From contig NZ_PKMZ01000014.1 of assembly GCF_002893625.1 (NCBI RefSeq), forward strand, positions 1 to 64,000: DNA of 64,000 nucleotides, written 5' to 3'. Source of the stretch: Mangrovicella endophytica. GTDB taxonomy: Bacteria > Pseudomonadota > Alphaproteobacteria > Rhizobiales > Rhizobiaceae. The translations under genes were made by a program, and so were the position numbers. How positions within the stretch are numbered: the first letter of the stretch is position 1; each line of letters begins with the position of its first letter. The notes under the pieces were generated by a model. That model saw nothing but the letters and a program-made list of their open reading frames with translations. It searched no databases and was not told the origin of the DNA. Positions 18,644 to 21,230 of this stretch are shown piece by piece.

Positions 18644-20314
18644 TCAGGGATTGGCCGCCGGCGCCGGCTGCGCCTCGACGGCGGGCGCGATCTGCGTCTG
18701 CGCCGGCTGAGGCGCTGGCGCCGACGGCTGGGCATCCGCGACCGCCGGCGGCTGGCCGGTCACAGGCTCGTCGCTGGAAGGCGCCGGAGCGGCCGATCCG
18801 CCCGTTGCCGGCGCCGCGTTTGTCTGCGGTGCCGGGGCAGCCGGAGCTGGCGAAGCAGGCGGCTGTGCAGCCGCTGCACCGCCGGGTGCGGGCGCCGCAG
18901 CGGCAGGCGCCGGGGTTGTCGCGGCACCACCTTGCGGAATCTGGTCCGTCGCGATCGGCTGCGGCGAGATCGTGCCGTCGGCAGCCGCGACGCGCCAGAC
19001 CGTGTTGCCGGCATCATCGGCGACGAGCAGCGCGCCGGTGCCGTCGATGCCGACGCCGACCGGGCGGCCGCGCGCCTTGTCACCGTCGATGAAGCCGGTC
19101 ACGACGTCCTGTGCCTTGCCGTTCGGCTTGCCGTTCTCGAACGGCACGTAGGACACCCTGTAGCCGTTGAAGGCGGTGCGGTTCCAGCTGCCGTGCTCGC
19201 CGATGAAGGCCCCGTTGGCGAAAGGCTGCGGCAGGGCAGAGCCCTTCGAGAAGGTCAGCCCCAGCGCGGCGACGTGACTGGACAGCGCGTAGTCCGGCGG
19301 ACGCGCCGACTTCACCATGTCCGGTCGCGGCGGATGGACCCGCTCGTCCACATGCTGGCCGTAGTAGCTCCAGGGCCAGCCATAGAAGGCCCCCTCCTGC
19401 ACCGAGGTCATGTAGTCCGGCACGAGGTTGGGGCCGAGTTCGTCGCGCTCGTTGATCACCGCCCAGAGGGCGCCGCTCTCGGGATTGAACGTCAGCCCAT
19501 TCGGGTTTCTGAGACCTGAGGCGTAGACGCGTGCGGCACCCGTCTGGCGATCGACCTGCCAGATCGCCGCACGGCCCTTTTCCGCCTCCAGCCCGTTTTC
19601 GACGATGTTGGAGTTCGAGCCAACCGAGGCATACAGGAATCGCCCGTCCGGGCTGAGCGCCAGATCCTTCGTCCAGTGGTGGTTGATGGGCCCGCCCGGC
19701 AGCGGCGTCAGGACGCGCGGCGGGGCGGAGATGCTGGTCTGCCCCAACTCGTAGGGATAGGCGAGGATGGCGTCCGCCGCCGCGACATACAGCGTGTTGT
19801 CGGCGAAGGCGACGCCGAACGGCGAGTGGAGGCCGGTCAGGAGATCGTGCCGCTCGTCTACCGTGCCGTCGCGGTTCGTATCGCGCAGCAGCGTGATGAG
19901 ATTGCTTTCCTTCTTCGGCTTGCCGCCATCGCCATGGGCGATCGACATGATCCAGCCACGGATGAAGTCCTTGGGCCGCGAGACTGGCTCGCTGTTCGGC
20001 CCCTGCGACTGCACGACGAGGACATCGCCGTTCGGCAGCGTATGTACGGTGCGCGGATTGGCGAGATCCTTGGCGTAAGGCGTGATCGTCAACCCGTCCG
20101 GCACGGTCGGCGTCTCCCCGTCCTTCCAGCCGATGACTTCGGCGACCTTCAGGTCGGGAATGAGCAGGGGTGCGGGGTCAGGCAGGACGGGATCCGGCCC
20201 GATCTGGCTGGAAAGATCGAAATCGCCGCCACTATCGCTGCAGCCGGAGAAGGTCAGGAGGGCGGCAGTGCCGGCCAGCGCGAGGCCGATGGTGCGCAGG
20301 GACGTGTCAGCCAT
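18644..20314 (-). CDS. PQQ-type sugar (L-sorbosone/glucose) dehydrogenase-like lipoprotein with Ala/Pro-rich tail
   Basis: The product has 556 residues from ATG 20314, with AAGGAG nine bases ahead. Residues 1-25 look like a lipoprotein signal (LLTFSGC, C25). A six-bladed propeller follows, with NPRTVHTLPNGDVLVVQ, HSPFGVAFADNTLYVA, HHWTKDLALSPDGRFLYAS, ASGLRNPNGLTFNPESG and GEHGSWNRTAFNGY, typical of the soluble glucose/sorbosone dehydrogenase family. The protein would sit in the periplasm. From about residue 450 to the end is a tail of roughly 105 residues made almost only of alanine, proline, glutamine and glycine, which is not part of the fold. It overlaps the upstream DUF2231 gene by 8 bases. 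Confidence 0.88.
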   Translation of the reverse strand: MADTSLRTIGLALAGTAALLTFSGCSDSGGDFDLSSQIGPDPVLPDPAPLLIPDLKVAEVIGWKDGETPTVPDGLTITPYAKDLANPRTVHTLPNGDVLVVQSQGPNSEPVSRPKDFIRGWIMSIAHGDGGKPKKESNLITLLRDTNRDGTVDERHDLLTGLHSPFGVAFADNTLYVAAADAILAYPYELGQTSISAPPRVLTPLPGGPINHHWTKDLALSPDGRFLYASVGSNSNIVENGLEAEKGRAAIWQVDRQTGAARVYASGLRNPNGLTFNPESGALWAVINERDELGPNLVPDYMTSVQEGAFYGWPWSYYGQHVDERVHPPRPDMVKSARPPDYALSSHVAALGLTFSKGSALPQPFANGAFIGEHGSWNRTAFNGYRVSYVPFENGKPNGKAQDVVTGFIDGDKARGRPVGVGIDGTGALLVADDAGNTVWRVAAADGTISPQPIATDQIPQGGAATTPAPAAAAPAPGGAAAAQPPASPAPAAPAPQTNAAPATGGSAAPAPSSDEPVTGQPPAVADAQPSAPAPQPAQTQIAPAVEAQPAPAANP

Positions 20315-20795
20315 AGGTGCGCACTCCTTCGATATGGGCGGCATGCCGGTGCGCGACGACGCGTCCGATCCAGGCAGTGGCGAGCATCAGCACAACGGTG
20401 ATGGCAGACAGGATGAGCCCGTTCGGCACCACGGCCGTCCAGCCATCGCCGGCATGCACGAAGCTGTTGAAGAGGGCGAGGATGAGAACGATCAGGCCGC
20501 CGACTGCATAGGGCCAGACGGTGCTGCGGTCGCGATCGTGCGACAGGAAGAGCAGCCCGAGGATCCCGGTCACCACGGCAATCCCGCCGACGACAAGTCC
20601 AGCGAACAGCAGCCAGGCCGAGAAATTCTGCCACATGAGATTGGCGCTGCCCCAGAAGGCGAGGTCGGTCGCCAGCGTGAGCGTGAAGCAGACAAAGGGG
20701 AAGGCTACGAGCATCGTCTGCAGCGAATAGCCGGGCGAAGAATATCGGTGATGGGGTGGGCGCATCGAGAGGGTCTCGGCATCGGATGAGTGCAT
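20307..20795 (-). CDS. DUF2231 family membrane protein
   Basis: The product has 162 residues with four hydrophobic segments (near residues 28-45, 58-82, 96-113 and 124-146) and an N-terminal HHRYSSPGYSLQTMLVAFPFVCF that matches the DUF2231 pattern. An ATG at 20765 is a possible later start. It overlaps the downstream sorbosone-dehydrogenase-like gene by 8 bases (ATGGCTGA), so the two are translationally coupled. This pairing of a small membrane protein with a periplasmic quinoprotein-type dehydrogenase is common. It may anchor or pass electrons, but no cofactor site is visible. Confidence 0.85.
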   Translation of the reverse strand: MHSSDAETLSMRPPHHRYSSPGYSLQTMLVAFPFVCFTLTLATDLAFWGSANLMWQNFSAWLLFAGLVVGGIAVVTGILGLLFLSHDRDRSTVWPYAVGGLIVLILALFNSFVHAGDGWTAVVPNGLILSAITVVLMLATAWIGRVVAHRHAAHIEGVRTYG

Positions 20796-20940
20796 GGGGC
20801 CTATACGGCGTCGACCGTCGGCGGTTCCCGAGCAGTCGCATCTTTGTGCGGACTTTCATCCGCCGGCCACGGCCGAAACGCCGGGACGCGAGACCCTCAG
20901 CTCCGTTTGTTCAAGGTCAGCCTTGCATAAGGCCCCTATG

Positions 20941-21105
20941 CTACCCATCTAGGTGCGGTGCAGCGCGTCCCTCGTTGACGGTTGATGCGCCCCGGCCTGC
21001 TTCTCGTCCGACCACGGATGTACTGGCGAGAAGAGAAGTGTGGCCGCACATCTCTGATGAGACGCGGAGCCGTTGGGTGAGATCCCCAGCGGCTTTGTCG
21101 TTTTT
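20941..21105 (+). ncRNA. Candidate small RNA ending in an intrinsic terminator
   Basis: The 435-base gap between the DUF2231 gene (minus strand) and the glutaryl-CoA dehydrogenase gene holds no coding frame with family features. A terminator-like hairpin at 21069-21105 points along the plus strand, yet the nearest plus-strand gene upstream ends more than 11 kb away. A further stem (CTTCTCG 21000-21006 with CGAGAAG 21027-21033) lies in front of it. This is the usual picture of an intergenic small RNA. The 5' end is arbitrary; I see no convincing promoter, and a 5' leader of the downstream gene (attenuator) is the main alternative. Confidence 0.35.
21069..21105 (+). terminator. Intrinsic terminator with no upstream gene on its strand
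   Basis: GCCGTTGGG (21069-21077) pairs with CCCAGCGGC (21085-21093), nine pairs including one G-U, around a 7-base loop, and is followed by TTTGTCGTTTTT. This is one of the best Rho-independent terminators in the window. It precedes the glutaryl-CoA dehydrogenase start by about 125 bases. Confidence 0.6.
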
Positions 21106-21230
21106 GCTCCCCGGTTCCATGCCGCCTCATCCCCCGCTCGCCATGTGACCTCCGGGATGATTGAGCTCTGGCGGCGATCCCGCTAACTCCTCTTCGAAAG
21201 CCGCCATGCGGCCGCCAGGAGATGTGCGAA

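Follow-up and report, generated by a model that had tools for sequence, protein, structure and literature searches.

The trans-acting small RNA SmelB053 and its relatives carry the loop sequence GGAUGUA, and 29 of 33 similar 3'-UTRs were found attached to cold-shock genes (Reinkensmeier et al. 2011; PMC3927594). SmelB053 has been tabulated with RpoD and RpoH1/2 promoters, and the rhizobial RpoH consensus has been given as CTTGAA-N16-CCTATAT (PMC8844928) or cTTGaa-N16-CgATaT (PMC4167512). The RNAs recovered with Hfq did not include the S. meliloti relative SmrB35 (PMC2848018), an about fourfold rise of the S. meliloti relative has been described for luteolin, and multiple copies have also been reported for other rhizobial sRNAs. 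In the literature on the function of GGAUGUA or csp tail RNAs, only PMC3927594 was relevant, and a function of the ar35/SmelB053 group was not given; PMC5928217 (GspR/cspA5) and PMC6337395 had no bearing on the function of the module.

The DNA analysed here (the window) is a 64,000-nt stretch of Mangrovicella endophytica. Comparison with homologues gives good support to the reading of one of its elements as a small-RNA gene, the expression of which is predicted, and by its sequence the RNA belongs to a divergent part of the known family that goes undetected by Rfam. With all steps of the account taken jointly, we consider it probable that the element is a stand-alone gene for a trans-acting sRNA of about 147 nt, from a lineage that has diverged within the rhizobial ar35/SmelB053 group.

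The predicted RNA extends from 20957 to 21105 on the plus strand, both ends being estimates. Covariance model R1, for which the window served as a training sequence, matched 20952–21103 with 145 bits, and the folding stability of the element exceeded that of 200/200 shuffles (z about -3.5; -3.57). Stem-loop 1 (20964–20991; GCGCGUC...GAUGCGC) is formed by helix 1, with 88% of cells paired and a sequence strongly conserved within the branch. Stem-loop 2 (20994–21045) consists of covarying outer arms that enclose the invariant module GACCACGGATGTACTGGC (21010–21027), which comprises the loop and the inner stem. Its core is a perfect 7-bp stem, in which CTTCTCG (21000–21006) is the exact reverse complement of CGAGAAG (21027–21033). 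It is followed in the consensus fold by the small stem-loop 3 (approximately 21050–21061; UCUC-UGAU-GAGA), which reads UCUC-GAAA-GAGA in several relatives and showed double changes at 4/4 pairs, with 94.5% of cells paired, in the model-fitted alignment. The unit ends with an intrinsic terminator (21064–21105), also kept in relatives, in which GCCGTTGGG (21069–21077) pairs with CCCAGCGGC (21085–21093) ahead of the T-rich tail TTTGTCGTTTTT (21094–21105). With 14 pairs, it scored highest among five terminator-like sites reported by a scanner over 6 kb. Under a strict rule (at least nine pairs plus a T-rich tail), it was one of three sites listed across the 64 kb, and five simulated windows yielded 0, 0, 0, 2 and 0 sites. 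The T-rich tail is interrupted, which counts against the favoured explanation. The 9-bp terminator stem with its plus-strand tail and the second stem ahead of it, both described in the earlier note, lie exactly where that note had placed them.

The search of Rfam proposed at that stage bore fruit in part: at the gathering threshold no match was obtained in the element, and a permissive scan provided the lead to ar35 (RF02346), to which 20951–21074 was aligned with 22.4 of the 45 bits required (E 0.037), perfectly so across GACCACGGAUGUACUGGC. An H19_2 match in the permissive scan was rejected as chance (E 1.1). The 45-bit threshold was reached neither by the window nor by any of 13 branch loci tested; it was passed by the ar35-type loci L040, L089, L099, L111 and L007 (55.9–139.2 bits).

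A covariance model was needed because BLASTN among 60 relatives gave only three matches. A plasmid search added one match in Aureimonas. Model R1 was built from five stand-alone homologues, namely the window, L002, L003, L004 and L156 (plasmid pAU20b of Aureimonas sp. AU20), which share a longer plan of stem-loop 1, the signature stem-loop 2, the small stem-loop 3 and the terminator. It retrieved 29 full-length loci with at least 76 bits (four of them training sequences) in 23 of 395 genomes of the family, distributed over 12 genera, and a 397-genome sample of the order yielded no further family at E <= 1e-10. Among the named stand-alone loci, L081 (Aureimonas sp. AU12; 107 bits) was the only one to join the branch. 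Matches below about 56 bits were csp tails and other ar35-like elements; two intermediate loci (L180 and L181, 52–56 bits) were kept out of the 29-locus count and alignment A4 and did enter the sets used for the analysis of promoters, covariation and arm swapping. Two or three full-length stand-alone copies per genome were seen in G197, G375, G106, G345 and G182 (L158, L166, L162, L194–L199). At L164, a stretch resembling a tRNA 3' half (CATAACTCGGAGAGTGTCGGTTCAAGTCCGGCC) lies directly ahead of the sRNA, just upstream of the promoter, and a full tRNA directly behind it; tRNAs are also found near L158 and L163. Such proximity may point to spread along with elements that use tRNA genes as insertion sites.

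In the model-fitted alignment, which leans towards its own structure (the structure-blind and alignment-free checks do not), 90.8% of cells were paired, and 172 double-change cells were counted, compared with 57 after shuffling and 22–55 in slid controls. RNAalifold, applied to a structure-blind alignment, recovered stem-loop 1, the terminator and, from stem-loop 2, the core without the outer arms; stem-loop 3 was absent from its fold. In this alignment, one terminator pair switches between C-G and U-A in 13 of 30 sequences. When the outer arms of stem-loop 2 were swapped between species, the mean pairing energy changed from -20.4 to -13.9 kcal/mol, and none of 20,000 permutations equalled the true pairing in this alignment-free check, a result that is not an exact probability because the sequences are related. 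The inner stem of stem-loop 2 contains six pairs without any variation, and its loop is equally invariant in the branch. The check for covariation in relatives, which the earlier note had recommended, hence turned out in its favour, with both stems conserved, the arms of stem-loop 2 covarying and a terminator pair switching.

Upstream of the RNA, a promoter-like element of the RpoH (sigma-32) type is located at 20922–20951 on the plus strand, consisting of CTTGCA (20922–20927), a 16-nt spacer and CCCATCTA (20944–20951), with transcription predicted to start near 20957. It agrees with 12 of 13 consensus positions, and its arrangement, CTTGCA-N16-CCCATCTA, conforms to the CTTGAA-N16-CC[TC]AT type of RpoH-regulon promoters. 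Of 32 loci, 28 have a CTTGNN-N16-CCCATNTA-like element scoring at least 10/13 in the corresponding position ahead of the RNA, a score that 2% of shuffled sequences reached anywhere in the upstream region. The spacer length equals that of the published rhizobial RpoH consensus sequences, and the boxes resemble theirs. The genome encodes two RpoH-like sigma factors, one of them above the family cut-off, and the one heat-shock promoter inspected, upstream of groES, reads CTTGAC-N17-CCTATCT. From the match to the consensus, we infer that an RpoH factor recognises this promoter. Sigma-70 was rejected as the main promoter type because the fit (7.6 of 12) was barely above that of shuffles (7.0 of 12).

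At least 119 genome-contig stretches, by their titles nearly all from Hyphomicrobiales, contain the 18-mer GACCACGGATGTACTGGC, a signature common to the S. meliloti SmelB053/SmrB35 (ar35) group and the 3' ends of csp mRNAs; among 61 relatives it was found in 25, against 0 for the reversed control pattern. Of 153 distinct instances, 90 are preceded by a csp gene in the same orientation, mostly at a distance of 15–120 nt from the motif. Six cold-shock-domain matches, spread over five genes, are present in the window genome; the hairpin follows two of these genes, and the 18-mer occurs in three exact copies. Two of these are placed in csp 3'-UTRs (L124, L126); the window copy stands alone, no csp gene being found upstream of it. 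In five genomes (G018, G023, G160, G280, G325), no copy of the motif within two mismatches exists besides the stand-alone locus, so that its role must go further than the copying of csp tails, a point against the decoy step proposed below. A third csp gene of the genome (L203, G000:C2, near 285319–285513) is followed, after the stop codon, by only a partial match, CTGACCACACCGG, which may be what is left of a degraded hairpin. Variants of the module with one or two changes (GGATGAAC, GGATGGAC, GGATGCAC and TACCGGC) occur in G102, G106, G125, G156, G197, G298, G304 and G406, and the T of GATGTAC seems to be its least constrained letter. Tandem pairs of the hairpin behind a single csp gene were observed at L067 (Martelella radicis) and L121.

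In the explanation that we consider probable, an RpoH factor would read the promoter, and the RNA would therefore rise under stress. It would fold into four stem-loops, the second of which would display the invariant 18-nt module and recruit an RNA-binding partner, with a turnover factor, a chaperone or a cold-shock protein as candidates; the RNA may then act as a decoy for this protein or be stabilised by it. A protein partner appears more likely than plain antisense pairing because the inner stem and the loop are both invariant and the same module ends many csp mRNAs. The identity of the module in mRNA tails and free sRNAs also suggests a dedicated binding partner in Hyphomicrobiales. A less likely but serious rival, and the strongest of the competing readings, is that the same sRNA gene works by classical antisense pairing, in which target mRNAs would be bound by the loop (CGGAUGUAC) or by other conserved single-stranded parts. 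Trans-acting sRNAs usually act in this way, and an invariant loop would suit it, but the unvarying inner stem and the occurrence of the module within csp 3'-UTRs are a better fit to a protein site, and the lack of SmrB35 among RNAs recovered with Hfq also speaks against it, as it does against the favoured explanation. We advance as an unlikely proposal, extending the interceptor idea of PMC3927594, that an RpoH-controlled, stress-induced decoy shows the hairpin found at the ends of csp mRNAs and titrates the factor handling those ends. If true, this would link heat-shock transcription to the expression of cold-shock proteins; where a genome lacks a csp copy, this factor would need other RNAs to act on.

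The position of the element allowed for a different role, raised as an option in the earlier note, in which it forms an attenuator or regulated leader of gcdH, with the terminator halting transcription unless a signal permits read-through. The gcdH gene (acyl-CoA dehydrogenase domains) starts at 21222 on the same strand, 116 bases past the T-tail, and read-through is possible. The element is conserved, yet its neighbours vary: gcdH adjoins it in none of the 31 other loci, gcdH and DUF2231 are found beside it in the window genome only, and no neighbour is conserved across loci, so that a role in gcdH attenuation is very unlikely. On the other side, the DUF2231 gene (20307–20795) and a GSDH-type gene (18644–20344) are on the minus strand, as had been claimed for the upstream genes in general; this holds for all credible genes back to about 9.4 kb, and the long plus-strand ORFs overlying them look like shadow frames. 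That the element is a functionless relic, a csp 3'-UTR hairpin copied elsewhere, would agree with the several module copies per genome and the variable neighbours, but is hardly credible given that structure, promoter-like element and terminator have been retained together over 12 genera. Least of all do we expect the unit to encode a small protein or a dual-function RNA: short frames of up to 130 aa cover the region on both strands, but no closed ORF is common to the 32 homologues, whose reading frames are interrupted by stop codons and by frame-shifting indels, and no Pfam match was obtained.

Given its covarying stems and the lack of a conserved ORF, which bears out the earlier view that no coding frame is convincing, comparison shows the predicted unit to be a conserved, structured, non-coding element at the RNA level. 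Likewise, the original suggestion of an intergenic small RNA holds because the locus is conserved and independent, its stems covary, a promoter-like element and a terminator flank a single unit, and no ORF is conserved. The ar35/SmelB053 group thereby gains a branch that escapes Rfam and occurs in a dozen genera, along with two new clues: the RpoH-type promoter is conserved, and the locus persists in genomes lacking any csp hairpin copy.

Among described systems, SmelB053/SmrB35 (PMC3927594) share with the window RNA a 5' stem-loop (variable in that family), a second stem-loop with the loop GGAUGUA (exact in the window, 21010–21027) and a rho-independent terminator as the last stem-loop. They are likewise stand-alone, multi-copy and devoid of stable neighbours, similar in size (139–144 nt in the S. 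meliloti family, about 147 nt predicted here) and, in the case of SmelB053, tabulated with an RpoH1/2-type promoter. The window RNA differs from them in the sequences of stem-loop 1 and the terminator, in its sub-threshold ar35 score and in stem-loop 3, which is added to the triple stem-loop plan of SmelB053. AbcR2 of S. meliloti, a stress-induced sRNA with a CTTGAA-N16-CCTATAT promoter, provides a precedent for an RpoH1-controlled rhizobial sRNA, but acts via anti-Shine-Dalgarno motifs and lies outside the ar35 family (PMC8844928). The hairpins in Rhizobiales cold-shock 3'-UTRs have the same 18-nt module followed by a terminator; in contrast to these mRNA tails, the window copy is preceded by no gene in its own orientation, comes with stem-loops 1 and 3, and possesses its own promoter-like element.
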